From positions 1 to 64,000 of the forward strand of contig NZ_QGMZ01000006.1 in the NCBI RefSeq assembly GCF_003173335.1: a stretch of DNA of 64,000 nt. The letters are read 5' to 3'. This stretch comes from Methanospirillum stamsii. Its GTDB lineage: Archaea; Halobacteriota; Methanomicrobia; Methanomicrobiales; Methanospirillaceae. The notes under the pieces were generated by a model that worked only from the letters and a program-made list of their open reading frames with translations, made no database searches and was not told the origin of the DNA. Each line of letters opens with the position of its first letter. Position 1 is the first letter of the stretch. Positions 8,745 through 31,141 of the stretch are shown in pieces. The translations under genes and the position numbers were made by a program.

Positions 8745-9599
8745 TTATTTAAGGAAATTATGTGATACCGCTGTTCTCTTCAACCGGTTCATGAAAAGAT
8801 CAGTGATCACCTCATATTCTCCTAATCCTTTTGTTTCAACTGTGACAGAGCATCCGATGGACTCTAATTGTTTCTGCCACGACTGATTGTTAGCATCCCC
8901 CGAGAGTTCTATCCATGCATGAATTCCCGGAACAATGGTCAGAGGTACTAGTTTAACTTTCTTCGCTCCAATATGTGATAAACGCTTTTTAACCTTTTCA
9001 AAATCCGGATATCCGTTTACCGTTCCGATGATCATCTGGCCGCCCGGACAGATATCATCAAGAATCATCTGCAATTGACAAAGAGCAGGTTCTGCTCCAC
9101 CTTCTGCGGTAGGGGACACCAGGACAACCGCTTCATCTTTCGCTTTTGGAGCGAAGATTGACTCGATTGCTTTTGCAGTATCAACATAATCCTCCGGGTT
9201 CATGAGCAATGATGAACTGATGAGGATACCGTCAAAACCGACTGCACCATGTGCTCCGGCCAGGTCATTCAGGGTTGTGATAATGGGATATAACTCATGG
9301 TATCGTGCTCCGGAGGTGATGAAAAGCGGCTGCACTACAACTTGTGAGTGACCTTTATCCAGAAGTGAGGTTATTGCTGCCAGCGGTCCCTGAATAAATT
9401 CATTCTGTTCCCGGAGGACAAGTCTGACAGGTTCGGATGTGAATGAATACGCAACTTCTGCCTTTGGATATAAATTCTGGATCTTCTTTACACAGGAGTC
9501 AATTACTGCTCTGCCTTCCGCTTGCGTTGTACCGATGGAGACAAGTAATACTGCTCCATGACTTTCAATTTTTTTCCCATGACCTTTCATTTTGATCAT
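8745..9599 (-). CDS. cbiK: CbiK-type anaerobic cobalt chelatase
   Basis: The 284-residue protein matches the CbiK/CbiX class II chelatases that insert Co(II) into sirohydrochlorin or precorrin-2 without ATP. Both halves show the family pattern: LLVSIGTTQ near the start, GARYHELYPI with the first metal-binding His, VVLVSPTAEGG, and IVPGIHAWIELSGD with the second His. No signal peptide is evident, so it should act in the cytosol, unlike exported CbiK forms. Starts at 9599 (MIKMKG) and 9590 are both possible. A TATA-like AAATATAT element at about 9616-9624 fits a leaderless transcript starting near here, with a perfect palindrome just upstream. In methanogens related small chelatases also insert nickel for F430. 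The neighbours favour cobalt. Confidence 0.88.
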   Translation of the reverse strand: MIKMKGHGKKIESHGAVLLVSIGTTQAEGRAVIDSCVKKIQNLYPKAEVAYSFTSEPVRLVLREQNEFIQGPLAAITSLLDKGHSQVVVQPLFITSGARYHELYPIITTLNDLAGAHGAVGFDGILISSSLLMNPEDYVDTAKAIESIFAPKAKDEAVVLVSPTAEGGAEPALCQLQMILDDICPGGQMIIGTVNGYPDFEKVKKRLSHIGAKKVKLVPLTIVPGIHAWIELSGDANNQSWQKQLESIGCSVTVETKGLGEYEVITDLFMNRLKRTAVSHNFLK

Positions 9600-12159: not shown

Positions 12160-12410
12160 GATAATAAATGATCAGGAAAGTATATTCTGTAATATTTTTT
12201 TTGAGAAGCAAAGGGATGTTGGTTATATAATAAGATACCTGTTTTGATAATGTTATCTTTAATATTTTTCTTCCAGGCCTTCTCAATCATGAAACAACAG
12301 ACTTTTCATATCATTATTCCAGAACATTGATTCAGATATTCAGACTGAAAATCAGGTTTTTCAGTTGTGTGTACGCAGAATGATAAACAATAGGTAAATC
12401 AGGAATAACT

Positions 12411-13397: not shown

Positions 13398-14363
13398 TTA
13401 CATCTCTCTGATTTTCGGAGCAATCTCTTCAAGCAGATCCCAGAGACGAGGACCGGCCCGGTCAGCTTTATCACTGTCAACCCGGATTATCTTGTCTGAT
13501 GCAATTGCAGAAAGAGCAGATAATCGCGGTTCAGTCTTGAAGTATTCCAGAATATCGGCATCATCGCTCCCCATTCCACTCCCGGAATTTATCATAAGGA
13601 TGTCCGGATTTATGTGAACAAATTCCTCGATGTTCACGATAGCATGCCCTTCCTTATCAGCAAATGCATTTTCGCCACCGGCAATCCGGATGAGTTCATC
13701 CTGAAACGTTCCTTTCCCACTAACATAAATGGGATCATTCCAGATAACGTGAGCTACAACCGGTTTTTTCGTCAGTGCTTCTCCTTCTTTTTGAACGGTT
13801 TCTTCTCTGGCTTTCAGATCAGAAATGATTTCGGTTGCTTTATCCTCGGTTCCGGTGAGATATCCGAGTTTTTCAAACGTAGTATAAATCTGATCCAGAT
13901 CTTCTGCTTCTACATAGTAGACCGGAATCCCAAGGGTCGATAACCGGTCAACGACTTCCAGATTATTTCCCGGAGATGCAACGATAAAATCAGGTTTTAG
14001 TGCGATGACTTTTTCAATGCTTACTGTTGAAAAACCCCCGACCTTACTTTTTTCAAGTGCTTCCTCCGGGTACGTGCAATAATCAGTCACGCCTACTATC
14101 CGGTCAGAAAGACCAAGTGCAAACAGAACTTCTGTGTTTGAAGGGGAAAGTGAGACAATTCGTTCCGGGTTTGCATCAAGAGTAACCTGATTTTGCAGAT
14201 CATCATCTATTGTCCGCGGCCATGATGCATCACTCACTCCCTCACCAGCACAGGTTGCCGGCATTAAAGAGAGAGAAAGAGCAATAATCAGACAAAATGC
14301 AATGAGGAATCCTTTTCCGGATTTCATTTTATCATTCCATTTACGAGATTTCTGGTTCTTCAT
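13398..14363 (-). CDS. btuF: Substrate-binding protein of a corrinoid/iron-type ABC importer
   Basis: A 321-residue class III periplasmic-binding-type protein. After a basic N terminus there is a hydrophobic export segment (FLIAFCLIIALSLSLMPATC), then the fold typical of BtuF/FecB: NPERIVSLSPSNTEVLFALG, VGVTDYCTYPEEA, KVGGFSTVSIEKVIALKPD, and HVIWNDPIYVSGKGTFQDELI. The BtuF group is suggested by the match around VGVTDYCTYP and by the chelatase genes upstream, but binding of iron-siderophore cannot be excluded. A start at the internal ATG of MKSGKG is equally good for the signal peptide. It is transcribed away from the permease/ATPase pair, with a shared 60-base promoter region. Confidence 0.82.
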   Translation of the reverse strand: MKNQKSRKWNDKMKSGKGFLIAFCLIIALSLSLMPATCAGEGVSDASWPRTIDDDLQNQVTLDANPERIVSLSPSNTEVLFALGLSDRIVGVTDYCTYPEEALEKSKVGGFSTVSIEKVIALKPDFIVASPGNNLEVVDRLSTLGIPVYYVEAEDLDQIYTTFEKLGYLTGTEDKATEIISDLKAREETVQKEGEALTKKPVVAHVIWNDPIYVSGKGTFQDELIRIAGGENAFADKEGHAIVNIEEFVHINPDILMINSGSGMGSDDADILEYFKTEPRLSALSAIASDKIIRVDSDKADRAGPRLWDLLEEIAPKIREM

Positions 14364-14374
14364 AATACTATCAC

Positions 14375-14392
14375 TTATCTTGTTTTAGATAA
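14375..14392. promoter_or_regulatory. Inverted repeat between divergent importer genes
   Basis: TTATCT-N6-AGATAA is a perfect 6-bp inverted repeat in the 60-base gap between the btuF-like gene and the btuCD-like pair. A single regulator bound here could control both directions. No ribosome-binding site precedes the permease ATG at 14424, consistent with a leaderless transcript. Confidence 0.35.
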
Positions 14393-14423
14393 AAAATACT
14401 TAAGGAATATCAGTTCTGGTATT

Positions 14424-15389
14424 ATGAATACTATTCGGAATTCACTCATTCTCTTAAGTCTTGGATGTGCTGTTGTTATCGCAGTTCTTCTCTCCGTAGT
14501 AACCGGACCAGTGGAAATTTCGGTTATTGATATAATTACGGGAGCAATAAGTAATGGAACTGAGGCACAGATCATCTTTGATATCCGGCTTCCCCGGGCA
14601 ATCGCAGCCGCACTTGTCGGTGCCGGACTTGCCTGTGCCGGTGCTGCCATGCAAACGCTCTTTCGGAATGATCTGGCTGATCCCTATACTCTCGGGACAT
14701 CTGCCGGGGGTGCTGTCGGAGTATCTCTGGCAATTATTTCCGGTGCTCTCCTGCTCGTCCCGTTCGGAGCATTCTTCGGGGCTATAGGTTCTGCATTCCT
14801 GGTGTATATTCTTGCAGCAGATAGAAAACGACTTAGCACTGGAAATCTTCTGCTCACCGGAATTGCCGTCTCCATGTTTTTCTCTTCTGTTGTCTCGGTA
14901 TGTCTGGTCTTTTCCGGAAATAATATGCACCAGATCATGTTTTGGCTTATGGGTGGTCTTTGGAATGCTTCATGGGCTGACATTCCCCTTCTTCTCATAA
15001 CTCTTATCCCGGCAGGAATCCTGATCTTGTTCTCCAGGGATCTAAATATCATGTCATGTGGTGAAGCAGAGACCAGGACTCTTGGAATTGACCCGGAAAA
15101 GACAAAACTTCTGCTTCTCGCGGTATCAGCAGGCATCACCGGCCTTGTGGTTTCAGTATCAGGATCTATTGGTTTTATCGGCCTTGTTTCTCCCCATATT
15201 ATGCGAATAATCACCGGCCCTGATCACCGGATACTCATTCCTGCATCCCTCGGTTGTGGTGCCATTCTCCTTGTTTGTGCAGATACGGTCTCCCGCACCT
15301 GGCTTGGCGATCTTCCGGTAGGCATTGTAACCGCATTTTTCGGTGCACCCTTCTTCCTCATGCTGATTCGAAGGAGGTCAGACCTGTGA
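14424..15389 (+). CDS. btuC: FecCD/BtuC-family ABC importer permease
   Basis: The 321-residue protein is a polytopic membrane protein of the FecCD family with about ten membrane segments. Diagnostic stretches include FDIRLPRAIAAALVGAGLA near residue 50, AAMQTLFRNDLADPYTLGTS, and GFIGLVSPHIMRIITGPDH near the C terminus, which contacts the ATPase. It should form the channel dimer that passes a corrinoid or ferric chelate inward. Its stop (TGA, 15387-15389) overlaps the GTG start of the ATPase gene, so the two are translationally coupled. Confidence 0.9.
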   Translation: MNTIRNSLILLSLGCAVVIAVLLSVVTGPVEISVIDIITGAISNGTEAQIIFDIRLPRAIAAALVGAGLACAGAAMQTLFRNDLADPYTLGTSAGGAVGVSLAIISGALLLVPFGAFFGAIGSAFLVYILAADRKRLSTGNLLLTGIAVSMFFSSVVSVCLVFSGNNMHQIMFWLMGGLWNASWADIPLLLITLIPAGILILFSRDLNIMSCGEAETRTLGIDPEKTKLLLLAVSAGITGLVVSVSGSIGFIGLVSPHIMRIITGPDHRILIPASLGCGAILLVCADTVSRTWLGDLPVGIVTAFFGAPFFLMLIRRRSDL

Positions 15390-16663
15390 ATTCTGAAATC
15401 CTTACTGTCAATAATCTTCACGCTGGTTATGATGAACATGACGTCCTTAAAGCCATCTCTCTTGCTATCCATGAAAGAAGTTTTGTAGGAATCATCGGAC
15501 CAAATGGTTCAGGAAAAAGCACGTTTATGCAGGTCATTGCCCGCTCCCTCCCTCAACGGGACGGAGAGATTCTTCTTTTAGGTGAATCTCTTACCTCGTA
15601 TTCATTTCGTGAATTCGGGCAACAGGTCGGATATGTACCACAGGAATGTGAAATAAAGTTCAAGTATCCGGTATATGAAGTGGTCATGATGGGGAGGAAT
15701 CCACATATTGACCGGTTTTGCTCCCCTTCTGCAGAAGATCATGAAATCGTCAGAAAAGCACTCGAGCAGACCGGGACAATGGATTTTGCTGACCGGCCGA
15801 TTACTGCTCTTTCAGGTGGTGAACGCCAAAGGGTCATGATTGCACGGGTGCTTGCCCAGGATCCTGCTCTGCTTCTGCTGGATGAACCGTTTGCCCACAT
15901 AGACATCCATCATCAGTACGAATTAATCCGGATTATCCGGGAGACTTCCCGGGGAAAAAGAGCAGTTATTGGTGTGTTTCATGACATTAACCTTGCTGCA
16001 GCATATTGTGATGAACTTGTCATTATGAGTGATGGGAAGATACGTGCATGCGGAAAGCCGGATAAAGTGCTGACAACCGGACTAATTCAGGAGATATTCA
16101 GGATAAAACCGGTGATTGATGTCAATCCTACAACAGGAACACCCTTCGTCTATGTTGAAGACGAATGGAACCTGCCGGCTGCAAAAAATGTCAATGTTCA
16201 TCTGATATCCGGAGGGGGAGCAGGATCGCACCTGATCTCTCTTCTGGTCCATGCTGGTTACTCACTCAAATGCGGAGTATTGTCTGAAAATGATTCTGAT
16301 TGCCGGATGGCCAGGAAGTACGATGTTCCAACTCTCATTGAACCTCCCTTTTCACTTCTGTCTCCGGAGAAAGAAGAAAAACTTAAAGAACAGGTACTGG
16401 ATGCTGATTTTGTCATAGTCACAGCAATGCCGATAGGATGGGGAAATTACCCGAATATCCGGGTACTTGAGAATATTAATCCGGAAAAAATAATTTTTAT
16501 TATCCCTCCTGGAGAGGTTTTGGCTGATTTCACAAGCGGAGTTGCAACGGGTACCATAAAGAGGCTTATTACCGCAGGGGCACACCAGGTTTACGGACCT
16601 GCTGAACTATTAGAGATATTACAATCAGGAACCAACCAGAATAGTTCTGATTTTATAAAGTAA
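15386..16663 (+). CDS. btuD: BtuD/FepC-type ABC importer ATPase with a C-terminal extension
   Basis: The first 260 or so residues are a standard importer ATPase: Walker A GPNGSGKST, a Q-loop in GYVPQE, signature LSGGERQR, Walker B LLLLDEPFAHID and the switch His in VFHDINLAAAYCDE. The GTG at 15386 is chosen because AAGGAGGT sits seven bases upstream and the codon overlaps the permease stop. Longer upstream frames fall inside the permease gene. A second domain of about 160 residues follows (VHLISGGGAGSHLISLLVHAG...), Rossmann-like in pattern, with a proline-rich stretch and an AGAHQVYGPAELLEIL end. Standard BtuD proteins are about 250 residues, so this extension is unusual. It may bind a nucleotide or the imported ligand. 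Confidence 0.9.
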   Translation: MNSEILTVNNLHAGYDEHDVLKAISLAIHERSFVGIIGPNGSGKSTFMQVIARSLPQRDGEILLLGESLTSYSFREFGQQVGYVPQECEIKFKYPVYEVVMMGRNPHIDRFCSPSAEDHEIVRKALEQTGTMDFADRPITALSGGERQRVMIARVLAQDPALLLLDEPFAHIDIHHQYELIRIIRETSRGKRAVIGVFHDINLAAAYCDELVIMSDGKIRACGKPDKVLTTGLIQEIFRIKPVIDVNPTTGTPFVYVEDEWNLPAAKNVNVHLISGGGAGSHLISLLVHAGYSLKCGVLSENDSDCRMARKYDVPTLIEPPFSLLSPEKEEKLKEQVLDADFVIVTAMPIGWGNYPNIRVLENINPEKIIFIIPPGEVLADFTSGVATGTIKRLITAGAHQVYGPAELLEILQSGTNQNSSDFIK

Positions 16664-19448: not shown

Positions 19449-20684
19449 ATGGATCCGACTTCACGAATAAGGCTCTCGCTGGGTTTTGTCTCGACTGCTA
19501 TCAGTATGATCTTCGGGATGGACCGGGGGAGAAAAACACCGCTCAGCCCTGGATCTATTGAGGTACTCTATTCATCATATTTTTCAAAGGTCCGGATGGG
19601 AGACATTGCAGGAATGCTGAAAATCACTCCAAGTTCAGCTACAGATCTTGTAAATTATCTTGAACGTGAAGGATTCATGAGAAGAATTCAGGATGAGAAT
19701 AACCGGAGAAGTATCCTGGTCGTTCCAACCGAAAAGGGAGAGGAATGGATCCTGGATACTGAAGAAAAAATGTACGGATTTATTGAATCCGGATTATCCA
19801 GGCTGAAACCAGATGAACAACTGCTTTTTGCTGATCTGTGTGCACGGTTTTCCGGAGTGCATGATAATTTCAGTTTTCTTGCTAGTGTCAAATCATTCAA
19901 AGAAGACCGGGGATCTGTCCGTGTTCCATTGATCACCCGGAAAAATGGCAGACTCCTCCGGCTTGAAGAAGTAGTAGATGCACGGTATAGTGAAAAACAC
20001 GTAGTGGAGAAAAAGGAAGATAACATGATATTTGAAACACGGGTTCCCGAGACATGTGATGGGATTCAGGATGAAGTAACTGTCGAGCAGTATGATGAAA
20101 TGCAGCGGGGTCTTCGAGACGAAGGACACATGCCAATTGAAGAACTGGTAAAATTCTCACAGTCTGGTGATAATGCTCTGGAGGTCGGCCCCGGACCAGG
20201 ATATCTTGGACTTGAATGGCTGAAACATACCAAGGATACAAATCTGACCGGGCTTGAAATCAGTCCGGCAATGATCAGAATGGCAGAAAAAAATGCGAAA
20301 GATTATCATCTGTCTGACCGGGCGACATACAGGGAAGGGAATGCTCTGGCAATGCCGTTTTCTGATGGAACCTTTGATCTTGCATTCTCCAACGGTTCAC
20401 TCCATGAATGGGAGGATCCAAAAAAGGTGTTTTCAGAGATTCTCCGGGTATTAAAACCAGGTGGAAGAGTCAGTGTCAGTGACCTTAAACGGGATCTTTC
20501 TACGGAAATTTACCGGTTCATGCTTGAAACCTGTGAAGGGTCTGAAATAAGGAAAGGGTTTGAGACGTCAGTTCATGCAGCATATGTTCAGGAAGAATTG
20601 GAAAAAATGCTCGGAGATGTCGGATTTAGCTGGTTACAGGTGATAACTCATCCGTATGGGCTTGTGGTTATTGGAAAGAAATAA
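19449..20684 (+). CDS. MarR-type regulator fused to a SAM methyltransferase
   Basis: The 411-residue protein joins two domains. Residues 1-150 form a MarR-like winged helix: VRMGDIAGMLKITPSSATDLVNY is the recognition region and MRRIQDENNRRSILVVPTEKG the wing with its DxRxx-like basic turn. Residues 205-411 form a class I methyltransferase with motif I ALEVGPGPGYLGLEW at 243-257, GLEISPAMIRMAEKNA, and FDLAFSNGSLHEWEDPKKV. A lysine/glutamate-rich linker separates them. Such a fusion suggests a regulator that senses or modifies a small ligand. There is no Shine-Dalgarno sequence and the TATA placement suggests a leaderless transcript. The gene is convergent with the pilin-like pair, four bases apart. 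Confidence 0.85.
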   Translation: MDPTSRIRLSLGFVSTAISMIFGMDRGRKTPLSPGSIEVLYSSYFSKVRMGDIAGMLKITPSSATDLVNYLEREGFMRRIQDENNRRSILVVPTEKGEEWILDTEEKMYGFIESGLSRLKPDEQLLFADLCARFSGVHDNFSFLASVKSFKEDRGSVRVPLITRKNGRLLRLEEVVDARYSEKHVVEKKEDNMIFETRVPETCDGIQDEVTVEQYDEMQRGLRDEGHMPIEELVKFSQSGDNALEVGPGPGYLGLEWLKHTKDTNLTGLEISPAMIRMAEKNAKDYHLSDRATYREGNALAMPFSDGTFDLAFSNGSLHEWEDPKKVFSEILRVLKPGGRVSVSDLKRDLSTEIYRFMLETCEGSEIRKGFETSVHAAYVQEELEKMLGDVGFSWLQVITHPYGLVVIGKK

Positions 20685-20688
20685 TTTT

Positions 20689-21210
20689 TTATCCCTGAAT
20701 AAGAACTTCAGGTTTGGCTATAAGATTCCGGTCATAATATAATTCCAGGTAAAATGTATTACCCTGGTATTTTTCTTTCATCAGATCAAATTCAGGGTTT
20801 ATTTTAGAGATGTTTGCATCCCCAAAAATTCCATGAGTTTCTCCAACTTTCATTGAAGTAATACCATGAGCCCACGTTTTTTGATATGTCCCGTTATTGG
20901 TGATATTGGCCTTATTTATTTCCGAAAATGAATTTTCTGCATTAGAACCAAAAGTCCGGGAAGGTTTTAATATTACAGATAAATCTGAAACAGGTAGTGG
21001 ATCACCCGATACATGAGTTATTAGAAGACTGGCATTCGTGGGATCATCATGATGTTGATGAAGAGTTGCCTGCAAAGTTACTGATGGAGGTTTTACTTCT
21101 GTATCCACCAAGCCTCCGGCAAAGCTATTCACAATTGCTGCAATAATTAATGTCAAAGTCAACATGAGGAGAACACCAATAACCGGCGATACTCCGGAAT
21201 CCTTATTCAT
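20689..21210 (-). CDS. Archaeal type IV pilin-like protein
   Basis: The 173-residue protein starts with the short class III leader of archaeal type IV pilins (DUF1628 group): a charged head, then GVSPVIGVLLMLTLTLIIAA, the hydrophobic assembly helix. A beta-rich extracellular part follows. The leader would be cut before the helix by a prepilin peptidase and the product assembled into a pilus or surface fibre. It is translationally coupled to the next pilin gene upstream by an ATGA overlap at 21207-21210. No pilus ATPase or membrane platform gene is nearby. Confidence 0.85.
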   Translation of the reverse strand: MNKDSGVSPVIGVLLMLTLTLIIAAIVNSFAGGLVDTEVKPPSVTLQATLHQHHDDPTNASLLITHVSGDPLPVSDLSVILKPSRTFGSNAENSFSEINKANITNNGTYQKTWAHGITSMKVGETHGIFGDANISKINPEFDLMKEKYQGNTFYLELYYDRNLIAKPEVLIQG

Positions 21211-21833
21211 GAATTATCTCCCAGAATCAGTTCCTGGCTGTATATTGTTGCTTGTGAAGGAACATGAACAATTTTTATCGTCAGGATAGTATCTTTATCT
21301 ATATTATCAGGACTAGTCCCAAAAAAAACCTGATCGCCAGCTGAAGTATTGATAAACATGTTTGTACCCCCAAAAAGAGTGTAATTTCCAAAATCTTCAA
21401 TTTCAGGTAGCCCATTTTTACTTGGAATTCGTCCTTGAGGATAGAGAGATCCAGGTATTGTAATATTCCCTCCCGAATTTGAAACTGATTTCCAGGACGT
21501 AATAATCTTTAGATCCCGGGTAGGAATACCATCTCCAGCAGAGATTACAGACATAGATACATTTATTAATTCGCTCGATGATTTCCATGCTTCAGTCTGG
21601 AGAACTAACTGTGGCGGTTTACTTTTTGTCTCTGACATTCCTCCTACATACCCGGATATAATTGCTGCTAGAATCACAGTGATAATAAGCATAAGCATGA
21701 TTCCGATCACCGGAGACACTGCCTGTTCTTTTAGTGGACTCCCTACCTTTAAAATAGGAGAATCCAGCCTAAAACGAAAATTTATCCTAATTTTTCTAAC
21801 CATTGGTAAAAAACTTCCAATTGTCCCACTCAC
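21207..21833 (-). CDS. Archaeal type IV pilin-like protein, second copy
   Basis: The core AVSPVIGIMLMLIITVILAA matches the assembly helix of the neighbouring pilin, and the rest is a beta-rich surface domain. Read from the ATG at 21833 the leader is about 38 residues, which is long for the family. A second ATG at residue 11 would shorten it, and no better start is visible nearer the helix. It is the first gene of the pair. The two pilins are only distantly similar outside the N terminus, suggesting major and minor subunits of one fibre. Confidence 0.8.
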   Translation of the reverse strand: MSGTIGSFLPMVRKIRINFRFRLDSPILKVGSPLKEQAVSPVIGIMLMLIITVILAAIISGYVGGMSETKSKPPQLVLQTEAWKSSSELINVSMSVISAGDGIPTRDLKIITSWKSVSNSGGNITIPGSLYPQGRIPSKNGLPEIEDFGNYTLFGGTNMFINTSAGDQVFFGTSPDNIDKDTILTIKIVHVPSQATIYSQELILGDNS

Positions 21834-21978
21834 GATTAACCAGTAATATTTTTTGTTTTAAAACAATAAAACTTTATTTATATGAACAGTACTTTTTTCA
21901 TCTACTTACAATCTAAAATTTTTGAGAAAAAACCGTAATGAAACAGTTCCAGACTTAAAAAAGAGAATCAGATAATTT

Positions 21979-22644
21979 TTATTTATTTTCTGCTAAAAGG
22001 GAACATGGTATGCAGACACGTTTTCCATTCAGTTCACGGGTTTTTGCATCCGCTACCATCTCACCACAGGATGCACACTGAATTGACTTAAAAATACGAG
22101 CCTTCTTTGGTGGTTCCATGTCAACAAAAGAAATTTTCAGGATTTTTTCTTCCGGAGCATGAAGAATAATTTCAGGTACCTTATCAGATAATTCCCGGAA
22201 CCGTTTCATCTCTGCTTCAGTAGCCTGTCCGGAAAAAACCTTTGGTCGTAATGCATCCATCTCCTCTCTTGGTAATACTTCATCAAGGTTCGTAACAACA
22301 CGTACCGCCTTATTACTTCTTCGGCAAAAAAACGTGAATGCATGTTTACCATAATCATTAATTATGAGATTTCCCTTTCCGGCAGTACAGCCGGTGATCA
22401 TCTGGATAGCATCCACAGAGCAGGCATCTGTTTCTGCTATTGCGACTAATTCTTCATCTTTTGGCCGTTCTACCCCAAGTGCTTTCATCGCTGCGATGGC
22501 AACCCGGTATCCGGATGAAAGCCCCCCACATGAATGCCCATGAAATTTAACCGCTTCTTCGTATGTAATAAATTCTCCGGATTTTGGATCCGGTATAGAT
22601 TGTGGTGAACACATGGTATACCAGAGTTGTCCGGAAGGATTCAT
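21979..22644 (-). CDS. FmdE-family protein with C-terminal zinc ribbon
   Basis: The 221-residue cytosolic protein belongs to the FmdE family, named for a gene beside formylmethanofuran dehydrogenase but of unproven function. Family residues are visible: AVKFHGHSCGGLSSGYRVA with the His-x-His-x-Cys ligands, AIAETDACSVDAIQ, and TGCTAGKGNLIINDYGKHAF. Near the C terminus CASCGEMV...RVCIPC is a four-cysteine zinc site. A second ATG at MCSPQS is possible as start. It is divergent from the exported FmdE-like gene and shares a promoter region that carries a perfect palindrome. Confidence 0.85.
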   Translation of the reverse strand: MNPSGQLWYTMCSPQSIPDPKSGEFITYEEAVKFHGHSCGGLSSGYRVAIAAMKALGVERPKDEELVAIAETDACSVDAIQMITGCTAGKGNLIINDYGKHAFTFFCRRSNKAVRVVTNLDEVLPREEMDALRPKVFSGQATEAEMKRFRELSDKVPEIILHAPEEKILKISFVDMEPPKKARIFKSIQCASCGEMVADAKTRELNGKRVCIPCSLLAENK

Positions 22645-22922
22645 ATATTCATCGAATTCATTGTGGATTGTGGATTAACAAACAACAAATATTAAGAATA
22701 TTAAGATAATTATTGAAAAAACAGAAAAATATCATTACAATTGTAATGAATCTTCAGATCTTTTTCACAAGTTATAAATTTCATTATAATCGTATAACTA
22801 TTTACGATGTTGATTACTGGAGTATTGTAGCATCACACTCACTATCAGTAAATGCCGCTATCTTGTAATGAACGTCAGATTTGTTATTGAATGGTAATCA
22901 TTGTGGATGAACGAGGAATCGC
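22645..22922. other. Divergent FmdE promoter region
   Basis: A 278-base A+T-rich gap. It contains a perfect palindrome at 22732-22749 and further half-site-like TCATTA/GTAATGA words near 22785-22800 and 22865-22880. No gene is visible. Confidence 0.5.
22732..22749. promoter_or_regulatory. 18-base palindrome between the two FmdE genes
   Basis: TCATTACAA-TTGTAATGA is a perfect palindrome located between the divergent FmdE-family genes. Its ATTAC/GTAAT half-sites recall those at 19395-19412 but with closer spacing. A shared or related regulator is possible, not shown. Confidence 0.5.
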
Positions 22923-24014
22923 ATGAAACAATTATTTACTCTCCTGCTGGCATTAAGTTGCCTGATTCTCCCCATTTCAGCATTGGCTGAAGACGATCTT
23001 ATGTACGACCTCGGGTCGCGGGCAGCAGAAGTAGGAATGGATCTGCTCAAATTTCAAGCAGGTGATGACAACATTCTTGTACTTACCAATGCCGGACATG
23101 CACTGGTAAAAGGCAAAACCACGGAACGTGCACTATCAGGCATCTCTGATATATCAGGACTGCAAAATGGTGACAACAATCTCTTCCAGGTTAACCGGCC
23201 AAACTGGAAACCACTCTGGTTTTATTTCTTTAATAAGGAAACAGGCATGGCTACATACATGGAACCTGATTCCTCATTCTTATTACTCAATGCAGAAAAT
23301 CGTGCTTCGCTTCCAGCCGACAAAGCATTCTCCCAGGTATCATTAATCCAGGTAAATCTGGACAAGATGCTTGAGAATCCGGATGAGAGTAACACTACCT
23401 TTAACAAGAAAAAATTCAGTGGTAATGAATTTTCTCTCATCGGGCTATCAAATGTCTGGGCTGCCGGAGCATCATATGAGTTCATGAATGCAGCAATGTT
23501 CCATGATCACCTGTGTCCCGGAGTTACCAGCGGATACATGATCATCAAGTATGTTGAAGACGCCATGCCGATAAAAAACGCTTCTGAAACATACGTAGAT
23601 ATTGGGTGCCCAAACTGGTGCAAGGAAGATGCATACCAGATGATCTGGGACAGCACTCCGGGTAAGAGCAGCATGTATGTTATGGCACTTGACCCTGATG
23701 ACGAAGCAGCATTACAGGAAAAGTATGGCATCCGTCCGGCTGGAATCATTGTGAAATGGAACAGTGTATCCAAGACAGGTAAGGGTCTTGCACTTGGATT
23801 TGATTTTGACACACTAAGCGAAGAACTCGGAGTTGCAAACTGGACCGGGCCATCATGGGCACCGAAACTTGTGCAGGACATTGGAATGATGGATTATGTC
23901 GACAAACCGGAAAGTGCCATTAAGACACTCAAGGAATTTGAGGTCGATGATGATCTGATGACACAACTCAAAACCGCTGGTAACAACCCCTATAAAGTTC
24001 TGGGAATGCTGTAA
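22923..24014 (+). CDS. Exported FmdE-domain protein
   Basis: The 363-residue protein carries an export signal (LFTLLLALSCLILPISALA) ending near residue 22, then an N-terminal domain without clear relatives, then an FmdE-like domain: FHDHLCPGVTSGYMIIKYV with the His/Cys ligands and IGCPNWCKEDAYQMIWD, which carries extra cysteines. FmdE domains are normally cytosolic, so a secreted form points to handling of a metal or metal complex outside the cell membrane. It is the first gene of the importer operon, and its stop overlaps the binding-protein start (TAATG). Its exact ligand is unknown. Confidence 0.8.
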   Translation: MKQLFTLLLALSCLILPISALAEDDLMYDLGSRAAEVGMDLLKFQAGDDNILVLTNAGHALVKGKTTERALSGISDISGLQNGDNNLFQVNRPNWKPLWFYFFNKETGMATYMEPDSSFLLLNAENRASLPADKAFSQVSLIQVNLDKMLENPDESNTTFNKKKFSGNEFSLIGLSNVWAAGASYEFMNAAMFHDHLCPGVTSGYMIIKYVEDAMPIKNASETYVDIGCPNWCKEDAYQMIWDSTPGKSSMYVMALDPDDEAALQEKYGIRPAGIIVKWNSVSKTGKGLALGFDFDTLSEELGVANWTGPSWAPKLVQDIGMMDYVDKPESAIKTLKEFEVDDDLMTQLKTAGNNPYKVLGML

Positions 24015-25180
24015 TGGGACATTCCCTTAAAAATTTAAAAAACGTGAAAAATATGACAAACCTGAAAACAATTATGATTACACTCATGATGCTGGCATGC
24101 CTTATTTCAATACCAGTATCATTCGCAGAAGAGACTGCAGCAGCAGAAAAAACTATCACAGACGGATATGGAAGATCTGTCACCGTTCCAGTCCCGGCTT
24201 CAGAAGTGCTTTGTTCAGGCTCCGGATGCTTACGATATCTGACCTACCTTGGTGGTGAAGACCTCATTGTAGGTGTTGACAGTATTGAAAAAGAACCACA
24301 AGTCATGGATGCACGGGGATATGCTCTCTTAAACCCGGAGTTTAAGGACTATCCATTGTTCGGTGAATTCAGAGGCAAGGATGACCCTGAAAAGATTATC
24401 GCTATTGGACCCCAGTTGGTCTTTAAAACCGGATCAACCGGCACTCCATTTGCAACAAATGCCGAAGAAGGAAATAAATTAACAGAAAAAACGGGAATTC
24501 CAGTAATTATGTTCCCATATGGTTCACTCCGGACCCAGACTGAACAGGATGAGATGTTTGGGGCACTCCGGGTGATGGGAGAAGTAATCAACAAGGAAGA
24601 CCGTGCTGAAGAACTGATCTCTTATATTGAGGATACAATTGCAGATCTTGAAAAGAGAACCGGAGATATTCCGGAAGCCGAACAGAAGACTGCATATGTC
24701 GGCGGTGTCAGTTATGCCGGAGCACATGGCATCATTTCAACCGAGCCTTCATACCCGCCATTCATCTGGACCAATGTAAAGAATGCAGCCGGAAAAATGG
24801 GCACTCAGCATGCTGATGTCGCAAAGGAAGCAATCGTTGACTGGGATCCAGAATATATATTCATGGATGTCGGAACCCTTCAGGCAGACAGTGAAGGTGG
24901 AATCGGCGAATTAAAAGATGATCCGGCATTACAGGGCCTCTCTGCAATAAGTGAAGGTAAAGTATACGGAGTGCTTCCGTACAACTTCTATAACACCAAC
25001 TACGAGAATGTCCTTGCAGACGCCTACTTTATTGGAAAGACTATTTATCCGGACCGGTTCGCGGATATCGATCCAAAAGAGAAAGCAGATGAGATTATGA
25101 CCATGTTCCTTGGAGAATCTCCATTGGACAAGATTAATTCCCAGTATAAGAACCTGGGATTTTCACAGATAACACTCTGA
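24014..25180 (+). CDS. Iron-chelate-type substrate-binding protein
   Basis: The 388-residue protein begins with an export segment (IMITLMMLACLISIPVSF), then TITDGYGRSVTVPVPASEVLC and YLTYLGGEDLIVGVDSIEK, the pattern of FecB/FepB class III binding proteins. Later segments (GMPVIMFPYG-like PVIMFPYGSL, KVYGVLPYNFYNTNYENVLADAYFIGKTIYP) resemble archaeal members tied to metal-chelate uptake. The ATG at 24014 overlaps the upstream stop; an internal ATG at 24053 gives a more normal signal peptide. It should deliver ligand to the permease/ATPase pair that follows. The ligand could be a ferric, nickel or corrinoid complex. Confidence 0.82.
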   Translation: MGHSLKNLKNVKNMTNLKTIMITLMMLACLISIPVSFAEETAAAEKTITDGYGRSVTVPVPASEVLCSGSGCLRYLTYLGGEDLIVGVDSIEKEPQVMDARGYALLNPEFKDYPLFGEFRGKDDPEKIIAIGPQLVFKTGSTGTPFATNAEEGNKLTEKTGIPVIMFPYGSLRTQTEQDEMFGALRVMGEVINKEDRAEELISYIEDTIADLEKRTGDIPEAEQKTAYVGGVSYAGAHGIISTEPSYPPFIWTNVKNAAGKMGTQHADVAKEAIVDWDPEYIFMDVGTLQADSEGGIGELKDDPALQGLSAISEGKVYGVLPYNFYNTNYENVLADAYFIGKTIYPDRFADIDPKEKADEIMTMFLGESPLDKINSQYKNLGFSQITL

Positions 25181-25221
25181 TTGAGATATGAAATCTGACA
25201 AAATCCCAATTTTTCCCGGAG

Positions 25222-26301
25222 GTGGATGTAATTCACTTCTCTGATGGAAAAATTCCTGCTGATTATCTCGGGTATGTGCGGATAAAACTACTCTGGATTA
25301 TCGGCGGCATTATTCTGTTATTTGTCCTGTTTATCTTATCAATTTCTGTTGGAGCAGTCTCTATTCCACCATATGATGTTCTGATGACGCTACTTGGTCA
25401 GAACATCAATCACAAGTGGGATGCAATTATCTGGAACATTCGTCTTCCGCAGGCATTAACTGCAATCGTTGCAGGAGTAGGCCTTTCAGTTGCTGGAGTT
25501 GCGATGCAGTCAATACTCCGAAATCCCCTGGGTTCCCCATTTACCCTTGGAATATCAAACGCCGGAGCGTTTGGTGCTGCAGTATCAGTCATTATCTTTG
25601 GTACTGGAACCATCCAATCCACCATAGCAGATCCCATTTCAATTAATAATCCGTATCTTACTACAATAACCGCCTTTGTTTTCTGCATGATTGCAACCGC
25701 CATCATTCTTCTGATTTCCCGGATACGGGGAGCATCACCGGAAGTAATGGTCCTTACCGGGGTTGCACTTTCATCGCTGTTTACTGCTGGAACCATGTTT
25801 CTGCAGTATTTTGCTTCTGATACTCAACTTGCTGCAGTTGTTTTCTGGACATTTGGTGATGTAAGCAGGGCTGGCTGGAATGAACTAGGACTTATGACAA
25901 TTCTTGTAGGACTATCCAGTATCTATTTCCTGGTAAACCGATGGAACTATAACGCTATTGATGCCGGAAATGAAACTGCAAAAGGTCTCGGAGTAAATGT
26001 AGAACGTATCCGCCTTTTTGGTATGACAATATCTGCAATGATTACCGCAGTAATTGTTGCATTTCTTGGCGTCATCGGATTTGTAGGTCTCGTCTGTCCT
26101 CACATGGTAAGAAGGATCATCGGAGATGACCAGCGGTATCTCATTCCCGGGTCATGTATCATGGGAGGAGTACTTCTTCTTGCATCAGATACGGTTGCAC
26201 GACTGATTGTCGCTCCCTATGTGCTTCCTGTAGCAGTTCTTACCGCATTTATGGGAGCCCCGGTTTTCATCTATCTTATTGTCAGGGGGTATAAACGATG
26301 A
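25222..26301 (+). CDS. FecCD-family ABC importer permease
   Basis: The 359-residue permease has the FecCD layout with about ten membrane helices: IWNIRLPQALTAIVAGVGLS, VAMQSILRNPLGSPFTLGIS and GFVGLVCPHMVRRIIGDDQR, the ATPase-contact segment. The listed start is a GTG at 25222 that itself lies inside the GGAGGTG ribosome-binding sequence, so the true start may be a downstream or non-standard codon. The N-terminal FSDGKIPADYLGY segment looks conserved, so the start cannot be far inside. It is coupled to the ATPase gene by an ATGA overlap. Confidence 0.87.
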   Translation: MDVIHFSDGKIPADYLGYVRIKLLWIIGGIILLFVLFILSISVGAVSIPPYDVLMTLLGQNINHKWDAIIWNIRLPQALTAIVAGVGLSVAGVAMQSILRNPLGSPFTLGISNAGAFGAAVSVIIFGTGTIQSTIADPISINNPYLTTITAFVFCMIATAIILLISRIRGASPEVMVLTGVALSSLFTAGTMFLQYFASDTQLAAVVFWTFGDVSRAGWNELGLMTILVGLSSIYFLVNRWNYNAIDAGNETAKGLGVNVERIRLFGMTISAMITAVIVAFLGVIGFVGLVCPHMVRRIIGDDQRYLIPGSCIMGGVLLLASDTVARLIVAPYVLPVAVLTAFMGAPVFIYLIVRGYKR

Positions 26302-27062
26302 TTTTGAATGTACAGGAACTGAACTTTTTATACCGGAACCATGATGTTCTTCAAAACGTTGCTTTTGAAGTAAACCATGGAGAAATTGTTGCAATTCTCG
26401 GACCTAATGGTGTAGGAAAAACAACAATGCTCAAGTGTCTGAACAGGATTCTAAAAGCGAATAAAGGACACATCTACCTTGATGGATCAGAAATTAAAAC
26501 CCTTGATACTCTTGAAATTGCCAGAAGAGCAGGATATGTCCCCCAGCGGGTTGAAACCGGAAGATTTACTGCATTTGATGCGGTCCTTCTTGGGCGAAGG
26601 CCACACATTACCTGGGATGTTTCTGAACGGGATCTTCGAATAGTGGATGCAATTTTTTCCCGTCTTTCTATGGAACATCTCCGGCTTTCGTATATTGATG
26701 AAATGAGCGGTGGAGAACTCCAAAAGATTGCAATCGCACGGGCACTGGTGCAGGAGCCAAGAATTTTACTCCTTGATGAGCCGACCAGCAGTCTTGATCT
26801 GAAAAACCAGGTGGAGATATTATCCACAATTGTTGATATTGTCCGGGAACATGGGATTGCAGCGATTATGACGATGCATGACTTAAACCAGGCATTCCGG
26901 TATGCTGACCGGTTTATCTTCCTAAAAGATGGGAATATTCATTTCCATGGCAATTTCAATGATGTTACTCCGGAAATCATTGAAGATGTCTATGGTCTTC
27001 CGGTTATGATGGGATCAGTTGGCGGAGTCAGGTGCATTGTTCCGGGTACAGCTCCTGCATAA
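26298..27062 (+). CDS. ABC importer ATPase of the FepC/BtuD type
   Basis: A 254-residue ATPase of normal importer length. Walker A GPNGVGKTT, Q-loop GYVPQR, signature MSGGELQK, Walker B LLLDEPTSSLD and the switch His in MTMHDLNQAFR are all intact. It lacks the long C-terminal extension seen in the other importer ATPase at 15386-16663. Overlap with the permease (26298-26301) and short spacing to the methyltransferase gene place it in one operon. Confidence 0.9.
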   Translation: MILNVQELNFLYRNHDVLQNVAFEVNHGEIVAILGPNGVGKTTMLKCLNRILKANKGHIYLDGSEIKTLDTLEIARRAGYVPQRVETGRFTAFDAVLLGRRPHITWDVSERDLRIVDAIFSRLSMEHLRLSYIDEMSGGELQKIAIARALVQEPRILLLDEPTSSLDLKNQVEILSTIVDIVREHGIAAIMTMHDLNQAFRYADRFIFLKDGNIHFHGNFNDVTPEIIEDVYGLPVMMGSVGGVRCIVPGTAPA

Positions 27063-27125
27063 TATCATCAAACAACCAGATTTTTCAAATTATTATCTCA
27101 ATTGACATATTTTTCAGGGCAATCT

Positions 27126-27962
27126 ATGACGAACTGGGCAGAAGTATGGAAACAACTCTATGAAGCAAGTAGCCGGACTAAAACAGTCGGAGAATGTGCT
27201 TCATTATGGGATTCAAAGGAACGTGCACTTGAATTTCTTAACATGTCCCTTGAAAATCCGGAGCGTATTGAACTGGTTTTATCAAAACTTCCCATCACGA
27301 AAAACAGCCGGATTCTGGACATCGGTGCAGGCCCCGGAACTCTTGCAATACCCTTTGCAGAGCGGGCTTTAGCAGTTACAGCCGTCGAACCTTCCACCGG
27401 AATGATTGAAGTAATGAAAGACCAGGCACAGGAAAAAAATATTACTAACCTTACTATCGTTCAGAAACGATGGGAAGATATTAATCCGGAATCGGACCTT
27501 GCAGGGCCTTTTGATATCATCATAGCATCATATTCGCTTGGAATGCCGGACATTGATGCTGCAATTGATAAGATGCAGGCCGTCTCATGTGGTCAGATCT
27601 GGCTCTTCTGGTTTGCAGGAACTACTCCCGGGGAAAGGCATATGACTCATTTATGGCCGAAAATTCACAACTGTGCCTATCAGATCGGGCCGAAATCTGA
27701 TGTGCTCTATAATGTGTTGTATCAGAAAGGAATCTATCCTCACATGACGGTTCATGAGATGAAGTATCAAAAGAAATATCCAACTCTTGATCATGCAGTT
27801 TCAGAAATGAGAAGGCAGATTGGATGTTCTGAGGAATTTAACCCACTTATTAAGGAATATTTCAAAGACAAAGTTTCAAAAGATGCCAATCAACTGATTG
27901 AGAATGGAGATACCGTTCGTGTCTGCATGTGGTGGGATACAAATCAGTTTCCAAAGAATTAG
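27126..27962 (+). CDS. SAM methyltransferase in the FmdE/importer operon
   Basis: The 278-residue protein has motif I ILDIGAGPGTLAIPFAE near residue 65 and AVEPSTGMIEVMKDQA, followed by FDIIIASYSLGMPDIDAAI. The N terminus NWAEVWKQLYEASS matches the family also encoded at 60839-61744, which has a similar WADFWQEAIQEG opening, and these proteins share a long C-terminal part with aromatic residues (RVCMWWDTN). The ATG at 27126 is preferred to an upstream TTG at 27102. Such methyltransferases recur beside FecBCD-type importers in methanogens as far as I recall, and the substrate is unknown. A chelate modified after uptake is one possibility. Confidence 0.82.
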   Translation: MTNWAEVWKQLYEASSRTKTVGECASLWDSKERALEFLNMSLENPERIELVLSKLPITKNSRILDIGAGPGTLAIPFAERALAVTAVEPSTGMIEVMKDQAQEKNITNLTIVQKRWEDINPESDLAGPFDIIIASYSLGMPDIDAAIDKMQAVSCGQIWLFWFAGTTPGERHMTHLWPKIHNCAYQIGPKSDVLYNVLYQKGIYPHMTVHEMKYQKKYPTLDHAVSEMRRQIGCSEEFNPLIKEYFKDKVSKDANQLIENGDTVRVCMWWDTNQFPKN

Positions 27963-28004
27963 ATTTGGAAATTTTTTAAAAAAACTGAAAAATTTGTGAT
28001 ATCA

Positions 28005-28781
28005 ATGAAGATGCTTATTTGTGGAAAAGGCGGCAGCGGAAAGAGTACTCTTACCGCTCTTCTTGCACAGCAGTATGAACAAAAAGGCAAAGATGTAGTA
28101 GTTGTGGATACTGACGAGTCTAACCTCGGATTACACCGATTCCTGGGTGTGAATCCACCAACAGACCTGATGGATCACATGGGCGGAAAACAGGAACTCA
28201 TGGGTAAGATGATGTCAGCCATGAAAAGTTCCGAGGGCATGATGAACATGCAGTTATTTGAAAAGGTTTGGAAGATCCAGGACATCCCTTCGGCCTGCAT
28301 TTCAGAGAACGGAAGAGTAAAACTCGTTTCAATCGGAAAAATTCACCAAGCCGGAGAAGGGTGTGCCTGCCCGATGGGATTTATCGCAAAACAATTCCTG
28401 AAAAACCTGAAACTCGCTTCCGATGAGATGGTTATTGTTGATACCGAAGCAGGGCTCGAACACTTTGGCCGGGGTGTTGAGGAAGGAACCGATGCCGTCC
28501 TGATGGTCCTTGATCCCTCGTATGAATCGGTTTTGCTCGCCAAAAAAGCAGCGGATATGACCGCATCAATGAAACTTCCGATGTATTTTGTTCTCAACAA
28601 AGTGACACCTGAAATAGCCAGTCAAATGAAAAAAGAACTTCCGGTTGAAAAAATAATCGGAGAGATCCCTCTGGACCAGGATATTCTTGCAGCAGGACTT
28701 TCCGGAAAAACCCTTTCAGGGTTCTCTTCTGCAATAGAGCCGGTGGTTCAGAATATTGTTTCGGTAACGATGAATTCCTAA
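28005..28781 (+). CDS. CooC/MinD-like P-loop ATPase
   Basis: The 258-residue protein resembles CooC, the ATPase that helps insert nickel into carbon monoxide dehydrogenase. It has the deviant Walker A CGKGGSGKST, the nearby DTDESNLGLHRFLG, a Cys-x-Cys metal-binding pair in EGCACPMGF, and EAGLEHFGRGVEEGTD with the family Glu/His. The ATG at 28005 gives the normal CooC start. An upstream GTG at 27996 adds three residues. No CO dehydrogenase gene is in the window, so the metal-insertion target is unknown. Its presence in the FmdE/importer operon suggests a role in loading the imported metal. Confidence 0.82.
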   Translation: MKMLICGKGGSGKSTLTALLAQQYEQKGKDVVVVDTDESNLGLHRFLGVNPPTDLMDHMGGKQELMGKMMSAMKSSEGMMNMQLFEKVWKIQDIPSACISENGRVKLVSIGKIHQAGEGCACPMGFIAKQFLKNLKLASDEMVIVDTEAGLEHFGRGVEEGTDAVLMVLDPSYESVLLAKKAADMTASMKLPMYFVLNKVTPEIASQMKKELPVEKIIGEIPLDQDILAAGLSGKTLSGFSSAIEPVVQNIVSVTMNS

Positions 28782-28790
28782 ATCCCTTTT

Positions 28791-29546
28791 TTATATTCGT
28801 AGTGGCATGGTTTTTTTATGAAGGACTATGCTTGCAACGCTCAGTATTATTGTAAATAACAAAAGCATCCAGACATCAAAATAAATCGGGAAATATCCGG
28901 TTCCGGTTAATGAAAAACGTGCGATGTCGGTAAAGTAGGTGAGCGGTGAGAGGTATGCAATAACCTGCCCGGCCCCAGGCATCTGCTCAACCGGCATAAA
29001 AATTCCGGACACAAAGATGAGAGGGAATTTTACCAGGGTTGAGAGTAACATGATGTTCTGTGAGACAGCAGTCGGGGGAACAGAGAGTAACATTCCAATC
29101 GCAGAAAAACAGATAGAACCAATTATTATTGCACATATCAACAAAATCCAATGAATCACTATAACTCCTATTAAGTGCCCGATAAATAGTGCAACCAGGG
29201 TAATCGCAATTCCAAATATGGTTGATGCAATCATATCACCCATAATAATCGATTCCGGAGCAACCGGACAGGAGATAAGACGTTCCAGGGTCCGGGTCTG
29301 TCCTTCCCAGGGGAAAATAACCGGAGAAATAGCAGTTGCAGTAAAAAACAGCGTCATGCTCAGAAGACCGGCAATAAGAAAGGGGAGTGATACAGATTTG
29401 TTTCCCATCAAAAATGCCATACAGAGAAATATTGGCATCAGGATACCGGATATGAGTACCGGAGGCTTATAATAATAGATTCTTAGATCCTTCTTCGCGA
29501 TAGAGAAAGCACGTCTTGTTTGTTCCCGGACCATTCGGATATTCAT
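28791..29546 (-). CDS. ABC-2 type exporter permease
   Basis: The 251-residue protein has six predicted membrane segments of the ABC-2 type: an N-terminal amphipathic stretch, VLISGILMPIFLCMAFLMG, a central SISLP-like helix, IFPWEGQTRTLERLISCPV (the conserved cytosolic loop) and PLIFVSGIFMPVEQMPGAGQVIAYLSP. Export of a small molecule or peptide is expected. It overlaps the ATPase gene by four bases (29543-29546). The two are transcribed toward the CooC-like gene, which ends ten bases away. Confidence 0.85.
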   Translation of the reverse strand: MNIRMVREQTRRAFSIAKKDLRIYYYKPPVLISGILMPIFLCMAFLMGNKSVSLPFLIAGLLSMTLFFTATAISPVIFPWEGQTRTLERLISCPVAPESIIMGDMIASTIFGIAITLVALFIGHLIGVIVIHWILLICAIIIGSICFSAIGMLLSVPPTAVSQNIMLLSTLVKFPLIFVSGIFMPVEQMPGAGQVIAYLSPLTYFTDIARFSLTGTGYFPIYFDVWMLLLFTIILSVASIVLHKKTMPLRI

Positions 29547-30469
29547 TTTTCACCTCCGGTTAGCCGGAGAAACACATCATCAAGTGTCGGGGCAAGAGTG
29601 TTTAAAGAAATAATTGACATTCCTTCATGTTCACTCAGGGCAACAAGAGACCGGATGGCTAGATCCTTGTCCTGTGCGGATAATTTCCATTTGTCACCAA
29701 AACGGGAGAACGTTGTGATTCCAGGCAGATTCCGAAGCATCTCTTCGGGAATATCGCGATTAAAACTGACTTCTATCTGATGAATTTTATCCAGAGTATC
29801 TTTGAGTTTTTCAGGAGAATCGATCGCGATGAGGTTTCCTGACCGGATAATACCAACCCGGTGACAAAGAGTATTTGCTTCATCCATGTTATGAGTCGTT
29901 AGAAAGATGGTAACTCCCCGACTATTCATTTCCCGAAGCATTGAGAGAATCATCCGGGCACTTGAGACATCAAGTCCGCTTGTCGGCTCGTCCAGAAAGA
30001 TAAGTTCAGGCTCATGAATCAGAGCCATGGCAAGAATCAGCCGTTGTTTCATGCCTTTCGAGAACGATTGGACTTTTTTTTGGGCATGCTCATAAAGATC
30101 AAAAATCTGAAGAAGATATAATGTCCGCTCTTTTGCATGTTCAGAACCAAGGCCGTAAAGTTCTCCCATGAACATCAGATTCTGCCATGCAGTCAGGTCA
30201 GGATAGGCATTCGAAGTCTCCGGGACCACTCCGAATTTTTGTTTTGCTAAAAGAGGTGCAGAAACCATACTGTGACCCAGGATCTGCACATCACCAAAAT
30301 CAGGTTTGAGAACACCAGTGAGCATCCTGGTTGTGGTAGTTTTTCCAGCGCCGTTCGGACCTAAAAATCCAAATATTTCTCCTTTTTTCACCGAGAAAGA
30401 GATAGAATTAACAGCGGTGAGCGAACCAAAACGTTTGGTTACATTAATTACGCTGATAGCATCAGGCAT
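29543..30469 (-). CDS. ABC-2 exporter ATPase
   Basis: The 308-residue ATPase has Walker A GPNGAGKTTT, signature FSKGMKQRLILAM and Walker B LIFLDEPTSGLD, typical of exporters of the DrrA/CcmA type, plus a C-terminal regulatory part. It lies just downstream of the cysteine-rich small gene (23 bases) and is coupled to the permease, so the three form one likely transcript under the HxlR operators. The substrate cannot be read from sequence. Confidence 0.87.
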   Translation of the reverse strand: MPDAISVINVTKRFGSLTAVNSISFSVKKGEIFGFLGPNGAGKTTTTRMLTGVLKPDFGDVQILGHSMVSAPLLAKQKFGVVPETSNAYPDLTAWQNLMFMGELYGLGSEHAKERTLYLLQIFDLYEHAQKKVQSFSKGMKQRLILAMALIHEPELIFLDEPTSGLDVSSARMILSMLREMNSRGVTIFLTTHNMDEANTLCHRVGIIRSGNLIAIDSPEKLKDTLDKIHQIEVSFNRDIPEEMLRNLPGITTFSRFGDKWKLSAQDKDLAIRSLVALSEHEGMSIISLNTLAPTLDDVFLRLTGGEK

Positions 30470-30492
30470 GAATAATAAAAATAATGACCTGA

Positions 30493-30636
30493 TTACTCAA
30501 GTTTCTTTTCAAGAGCACTCAGTCTTTCTTCAAAACTCTTTTTCATATCATTGCAGTCACACATTGTTTCTGCTTCGCTTGCCCCGCTACAACAACATGC
30601 ACAGACTTTGTCTCCTTTCTTTTCTGGAAAACACAT
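30493..30636 (-). CDS. Small cysteine-rich protein, 47 residues
   Basis: This gene is short and easy to miss. Translation from the ATG at 30636 gives a basic N terminus, then CACCC with Cys at 12, 14, 15 and 16, then CDC at 26 and 28, and an amphipathic helix to the end (SFEERLSALEKKLE). With Cys 2 there are seven cysteines in 47 residues. A strong ribosome-binding site, AGAGGTGAG, lies about seven bases upstream of the ATG, and the gene is tightly placed before the ABC exporter genes. Metal binding like a metallothionein, or a role as an exported peptide, are both possible. I recognise no family. Confidence 0.7.
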   Translation of the reverse strand: MCFPEKKGDKVCACCCSGASEAETMCDCNDMKKSFEERLSALEKKLE

Positions 30637-30661
30637 ACTTCTCACCTCTTATACCTAGCAT

Positions 30662-30701
30662 ACTATGATAATCATACTATTTAAACTATGACAATCATAG
30701 T
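30662..30701. promoter_or_regulatory. Two operator-like repeats between divergent genes
   Basis: ACTATGA-TAA-TCATACT at 30662-30678 and ACTATGA-CAA-TCATAGT at 30685-30701 are the same 17-base inverted repeat, the second perfect and the first with one mismatch. Their centres are 23 bases apart, about two helical turns. They lie between the HxlR regulator start at 30713 and the cysteine-rich gene start at 30636, so one regulator could control both directions. Confidence 0.72.
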
Positions 30702-30712
30702 AATGACCAGTC

Positions 30713-31141
30713 ATGTGTGTCGATAAAGAACATAAATATCTGTGTGCTGCCGGAGGGATTCTCTCCATAATCTCAAAAAAATGGGCACTCCTAATAATTT
30801 ATAAACTTGGAACCCGGGGAAGACTCAGGTTTACTGATTTTTCAACCGAACTTGATACGATAAATCCCCAGGCATTATCTGAAACACTCAAGGATCTGGT
30901 AAGCGAAGGGCTTATAGAACGTGAATCCTTTCCGGAAGTTCCCCCCCGTGTTGAGTACTTTTTAACCCCGGAAGGTCAGACACTCTGGGAATTAGTAAAA
31001 CCTCTGATACAATGGGCTGCTGAACGCGATTACCGGGATAAGGACAGGTGTGATAAGATCTGCCGGAAAAAAATGTGTCATTCTAAAAATTCACCCTGTA
31101 AACGGGAGTTACAGAATGAAAGAAAGAATAATAATCTCTAA
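30713..31141 (+). CDS. HxlR-family regulator with a cysteine-rich tail
   Basis: The 142-residue protein has an HxlR winged helix: ILSIISKKWALLIIYKLG, RFTDFSTELDTINPQALSETLKDLVSEGLIERE and YFLTPEGQTLWEL. The C-terminal 35 residues are unusual: CDKICRKKMCHSKNSPC supplies four cysteines, with two more near the N terminus (CVDK, YLCAAGG). This makes a metal or thiol sensor likely. It is divergent from the cysteine-rich small gene and the ABC exporter, with the paired operators between. Confidence 0.85.
   Translation: MCVDKEHKYLCAAGGILSIISKKWALLIIYKLGTRGRLRFTDFSTELDTINPQALSETLKDLVSEGLIERESFPEVPPRVEYFLTPEGQTLWELVKPLIQWAAERDYRDKDRCDKICRKKMCHSKNSPCKRELQNERKNNNL

Follow-up and report, generated by a model that had tools for sequence, protein, structure and literature searches.

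We analysed a stretch of 64,000 nucleotides from the archaeon Methanospirillum stamsii (the window), taken from the beginning of a 209-kb contig in a Methanospirillum-like genome of 3.74 Mb, and focused on a run of six co-directed genes at 22923-28781 (+ strand) that encode an exported FmdE protein, the importer components FecB, FecC and FecD, a methyltransferase and a CooC-like ATPase. In the exported FmdE, two FmdE domains follow one another in tandem, and the CooC-like ATPase falls into a separate clade that is not of the type that matures carbon monoxide dehydrogenase (CODH). The operon might serve the acquisition of a metal chelate, most likely of nickel, a reading to which we give close to an even chance. 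A copy that is 97% identical is present in a metagenome-assembled genome. The genes and sites concerned are:

21979-22644, - strand: cytosolic FmdE with a C-terminal C4 zinc finger (PF02663, E=2e-43; PF01258; 2GVI, E=5e-18)
22771-22798, no strand: hyphenated palindrome GTTATA-N16-TATAAC in the divergent promoter, a possible operator
22923-24014, + strand: exported FmdE with two tandem FmdE domains (PF02663; signal peptide judged by eye)
24014-25180, + strand: FecB-type binding protein (PF01497, Peripla_BP_2; 2ETV, E=7e-68)
25222-26301, + strand: FecCD-type permease (PF01032, E=3e-88)
26298-27062, + strand: ATPase of an ATP-binding cassette (ABC) transporter, FecE/BtuD class (PF00005, ABC_tran)
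27102-27962, + strand: class I S-adenosylmethionine-dependent methyltransferase (Pfam; AlphaFold2 model)
27996-28781, + strand: S-type CooC-like ATPase (CbiA/ParA P-loop, Pfam; 3KJE, E=7e-15)

Searches of the open reading frames (ORFs), of Pfam and of the sequences in the PDB showed that all seven genes are real and lie where a first interpretation from the DNA letters alone (the sequence-only reading) had placed them. The tight coupling which it had described for the six-gene set, with the cytosolic FmdE diverging from it, was borne out as well: the gaps between consecutive genes are -1, 41, -4, 39 and 33 nt, suggesting that the six genes form one operon.

Against the PF02663 cut-off of 22.9 bits, the cytosolic FmdE scores 147.8 bits and the exported FmdE 56.1 bits, and in the latter Pfam detects a single domain (residues 193-290). 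However, a profile of residues 24-168, built from 24 homologues, matched the profile of the cytosolic FmdE (E=1.2e-12, score 80.8; the best of 60 column shuffles scores 21.6), and so did the C-terminal half (E=2.9e-14). Compared directly, the two repeats aligned in the expected register without reaching significance, and the tandem assignment therefore rests on the comparison with the cytosolic profile. The AlphaFold2 model of the exported protein (predicted local distance difference test score, pLDDT, 94) matches the fold of 2GLZ, and the order of helices and strands, judged by eye, runs parallel in its two halves. His194, His196, Cys198 and Cys233 do not vary among 24 sequences from archaea and bacteria and align with the 2GLZ metal ligands His15, His17, Cys19 and Cys55; the complete His-His-Cys-Cys site is found only in the second repeat, the first being degenerate. 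Solved FmdEs form intertwined dimers, and each chain has an arginine that contacts the metal site of its partner (PMC2954224), so the exported FmdE might represent a covalent (pseudo-)dimer with a single working metal site. Exported FmdEs of other organisms vary in architecture: those of Desulfofundulus and Ammonifex (L138, L143) carry an extra N-terminal domain, by eye a copper amine oxidase-like stalk, and an ORF of ANME-2 (anaerobic methanotrophic archaea; L146, 2793-5936) of 1047 amino acids resembles several exported FmdE units in a row and sits upstream of an SBP_bac_5 importer. The zinc ribbon that the sequence-only reading had assigned to the cytosolic FmdE corresponds to a match to C4 zinc fingers of the dksA/traR family; solved FmdE relatives have a treble clef at this position (PMC2954224).

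The best solved relative of the window's CooC-like protein is CooC1 (3KJE), with which its CxC pair is aligned; its motifs are GKGGSGKS and GEGCACPMG. In a phylogenetic tree, the S-type sequences (GKGGSGK; mostly GxGCxCPM) formed one group of 47 against 26 V-type sequences with 100/100 support. Three caveats apply to this tree: the motif letter after which the types are named is among the columns of its alignment, the V-type sequences were drawn from Methanomicrobiales, and a few of them sit on long branches. A CODH match within 8 kb was present at 26 of 27 V-type places, but at none of 50 S-type and none of five unclassified places. The other CooC of this genome (contig 1) is of the V-type and among those near CODH. 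The role of a CODH-type nickel loader, on which the sequence-only reading had drawn, thus did not hold: we reject nickel delivery to CODH by the window's CooC on account of the separate clade and the CODH-free neighbourhoods (0/55 places). Annotation as CooC does not imply CODH maturation, since a whole clade is found outside CODH loci. Many S-type loci were retrieved via the exported FmdE; of the 28 that were found via CooC itself, FecB or SBP_bac_5 lies within 8 kb in 17, and an importer or methyltransferase gene in 24. The same genome holds a second pair of methyltransferase and S-type CooC (L057, G000:C9:24001-37300, at 10603-12261) with FecB-like flanks but no FmdE.

The exported FmdE was found in 11 of 12 Methanospirillum genomes (the twelfth is only 64% complete), and FecB lies immediately 3' of it in all eight genomes in which the contig runs past the gene. 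This association is not due to chance: the genome of 3.74 Mb holds 15 well-scoring FecCD genes, so that about 4% of randomly chosen genes would have one within 5 kb. The cytosolic FmdE is beside or inside the operon in 10 of 11 genomes. The window species, G156 and G150 share the order exported FmdE-FecBCD-methyltransferase-CooC with the cytosolic FmdE divergent; G154 lacks CooC, and its methyltransferase is followed by a set of SBP_bac_5, two permeases and two ATPases; in G160, G153 and G151 the operon has the cytosolic FmdE in fifth place, and methyltransferase and CooC are absent after FecD. These gene orders indicate a core of exported FmdE, FecBCD and cytosolic FmdE, to which methyltransferase and CooC are accessory; conservation of the neighbourhood, which the sequence-only reading had proposed to examine for seven genes, applies to the core, and the other two genes are optional. 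Their absence from three genomes might mean that FmdE-FecBCD and methyltransferase-CooC are separate metal-related modules, juxtaposed without a common substrate, as might G047, a genome of another genus, where a methyltransferase-CooC pair (77 and 76% identical) stands with neither exported FmdE nor FecBCD beside it. We consider this improbable, because the S-type CooC and the methyltransferase family recur by importers in several families, FmdE-independent loci included (24/28), and because the gaps of 33-41 nt suggest a single transcript. A further FmdE cluster of the same genome (L067, G000:C52:10000-29000) contains genes for a CoA-enzyme activase, a DGC protein, TrmO, FecBCD and methyltransferases. 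A 1393-residue neighbour of another FmdE in this genome was considered as CobN and ruled out, Pfam identifying it as a CoA-enzyme activase.

Across the genome collection, an importer binding protein or a TonB receptor lies within 5 kb of the exported FmdE in 45 of 80 loci. Methanothrix shows the order exported FmdE-SBP_bac_5-CooC-flavin reductase, sometimes with the methyltransferase and a heavy-metal P-type ATPase, SBP_bac_5 being the binding-protein family of NikA and OppA; in ANME-2, FmdE repeats precede SBP_bac_5, two permeases and two ATPases; a TonB receptor adjoins the exported FmdE in Sporomusa, Desulfonema, Desulfobacterium and Syntrophaceae; and in Desulfofundulus the gene is near an S-type CooC and FecBCD. 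That most FmdE family genes stand beside metal-ion transporters was already noted in 2010 (Axelrod et al., PMC2954224), so this general link is not new. For the tandem form of the exported FmdE and for the CooC clade away from CODH, the literature searched on FmdE with CooC, TonB or ABC transporters gave no earlier description, nor did it give an account of such a system.

Peripla_BP_2, FecCD and ABC_tran in one operon identify the importer as a member of the FecBCD/BtuFCD class, and Pfam found neither SBP_bac_5 nor BPD_transp permeases in the window operon, these being present in relatives only. The closest PDB entry to the FecB protein, 2ETV, is named a putative iron(III) ABC transporter binding protein, and genes of the FecBCD class are mostly known for iron and heme. 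The operon could accordingly encode an importer of siderophore or heme iron to which FmdE, methyltransferase and CooC are accessory, with CooC and the flavin reductases of relatives releasing or reducing the iron; flavin reductase genes do occur near the S-type CooC in 20 of 50 places, and a Desulfobacterium TonB receptor scores best against heme receptors, below the cut-off. Iron is nonetheless an unlikely substrate in our view, since the HxHxC..C motif, with zinc/nickel in 2GLZ, and the NikA-family partners in Methanothrix fit nickel or cobalt better.

For nickel speak the CxC pair of the CooC family, the partners of the NikA/OppA family, and the 2GLZ metal site, which holds zinc and nickel at 2.6:1 (PMC2954224). 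The nickel/cobalt importer of Helicobacter mustelae belongs to a gene class related to the FecBCD/BtuFCD class. Nickel/cobalt import in that species is credited to Stoof et al. 2010, as cited in PMC11247825. We regard nickel as the leading candidate metal, with a probability a little short of even. Also in favour of nickel, many hosts are known for carbon monoxide dehydrogenase/acetyl-CoA synthase. Several observations weigh against a nickel acquisition operon: the nickel in 2GLZ may be adventitious and stem from the nickel resin used on the protein; the genus Methanospirillum already has CbiM/NikM transporters; about half of the exported FmdE loci, chiefly in Methanosarcina, have no recognised importer nearby, so that the link between FmdE and importers is not universal; three Methanospirillum genomes, as described, do without methyltransferase and CooC; and a corrinoid/cobalt island lies 5-18 kb upstream of the operon, with CobN at 4020-7760 (over the TIGR02257 cut-off, 15 kb upstream), CbiK at 8745-9599, and BtuF-, BtuC- and BtuD-like genes at 13398-16663. 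This island favours a cobalt, corrinoid or tetrapyrrole system, in which FecBCD would import a cobalt complex or corrinoid fragment, the methyltransferase and CooC would remodel or load it, and cobalt chelatases would finish the process. The order of CbiK and BtuFCD is kept upstream in G150 and G154, and BtuFCD also in G156; two Methanomicrobiaceae loci, and Ammonifex too, have CobN near the exported FmdE; and in Sporomusa ovata a cobalamin riboswitch precedes a NikA-type importer near the exported FmdE. However, corrinoids are already served by the separate BtuFCD, the operon is located apart from the syntenic corrinoid genes in G160 and G153, nickel is the metal handled by CooC relatives, and permease and ATPase fall below the NCBIfam cut-offs for B12 transport (BtuC 195.6 bits, cut-off 334; corrinoid ATPase 178.1, cut-off 537). 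Cobalt or a corrinoid seems to us less likely than nickel, but it is an alternative to be taken seriously and a more plausible one than iron.

If the operon does acquire a nickel chelate, the exported tandem FmdE would bind the metal or its complex outside the membrane at its one His-His-Cys-Cys site, with the degenerate first repeat as a built-in dimer partner, and would hand it to the FecB binding protein, from which FecC and FecD would bring the complex into the cell with ATP. Once inside, the metal might be accepted or stripped off by the S-type CooC, a MinD/NifH-like ATPase whose CxC pair coincides with the metal site of CooC1; the zinc-finger FmdE could be a cytosolic acceptor or sensor, and the methyltransferase would probably modify the imported ligand. 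We infer the identity of the metal, the direction of its flow and the roles of CooC, methyltransferase and cytosolic FmdE. The methyltransferase has a class I fold (AlphaFold2, pLDDT 90) whose nearest folds are small-molecule methyltransferases; these are many and unrelated, and the fold search indicated no substrate. Most Methanomicrobiales genomes encode members of its family, often several of them, and a relative of 278 amino acids suggests that the start codon of the window gene may lie eight codons later. The conserved archaeal and bacterial neighbourhoods lend good support to the proposal of the sequence-only reading that a metal complex is taken up and processed; nickel delivery to CODH finds no support, and the methyltransferase and CooC are optional. 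A bolder and, to us, unlikely extension would make the exported tandem FmdE a new class of metallochaperone acting outside the cytoplasm and would have the S-type CooC use ATP to remove nickel or cobalt from an imported chelate, both within a dedicated acquisition pathway of anaerobic archaea and bacteria distinct from NikMNQO. The operon names candidate proteins for the capture, import and intracellular handling of complexed metal, and FmdE, a family without proven function, gains a concrete hypothesis.

The palindrome GTTATA-N16-TATAAC between the divergent genes is the sole exact copy in each of five Methanospirillum genomes and is conserved in an alignment; it is a possible operator, and part of it may overlap a TATA box. 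The nikM/cbiM and nikR upstream regions that were checked do not share it, and we do not claim control by NikR, although NikR is encoded in the genome. No riboswitch was found in the window. On the far side of the cytosolic FmdE lie two archaeal type IV pilin-like genes (Pilin_N; 20689-21833, - strand), and similar pairs recur near the exported FmdE in Methanomicrobiaceae (G013, G066). A MarR-methyltransferase fusion (19449-20684, + strand), possibly a regulator, has stayed next to these pilin genes and the cytosolic FmdE in several genomes of Methanospirillum. CooC is adjoined by an ABC-2 exporter pair and an HxlR regulator (28791-31141), an arrangement kept in G150, too.

With the solved members of the FmdE family (PF02663; 2GLZ, 2GVI, 3D00; Axelrod et al. 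2010, PMC2954224) the exported protein shares the fold and the four metal ligands, and two-domain PF02663 members share the zinc finger with the cytosolic FmdE (PMC2954224). It differs from them in being exported and tandem, with one working site, and no formylmethanofuran dehydrogenase (Fmd/Fwd) is among the annotated genes around 19449-31141; in the family, 13 of 208 genes are in an operon with that enzyme (PMC2954224). CooC1 (3KJE), the ATPase that inserts nickel into CODH, has in common with the window protein the MinD-like P-loop, a Walker motif with a second lysine and the aligned CxC, but the latter belongs to a separate clade (GKGGSGK, GCACPMG) for which none of the loci examined has CODH within 8 kb. 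In the NikABCDE/Opp-type systems, a related binding-protein family replaces FecBCD beside the exported FmdE in Methanothrix and ANME-2, and such a set follows the methyltransferase in G154; it is absent from the window operon, and the versions of relatives are mostly below the NCBIfam NikA cut-off. The Hmu heme system with its de-chelatase HmuS (PMC12583661) shows that an operon for heme uptake can include an enzyme that strips off the metal, whereas the window operon contains neither HmuS nor CobN and its proposed stripping ATPase would come from a different family. With importers of the FecBCD/BtuFCD class, finally, the operon shares the binding protein, the FecCD permease and the ATPase, and to these it adds an exported FmdE, a methyltransferase and CooC.

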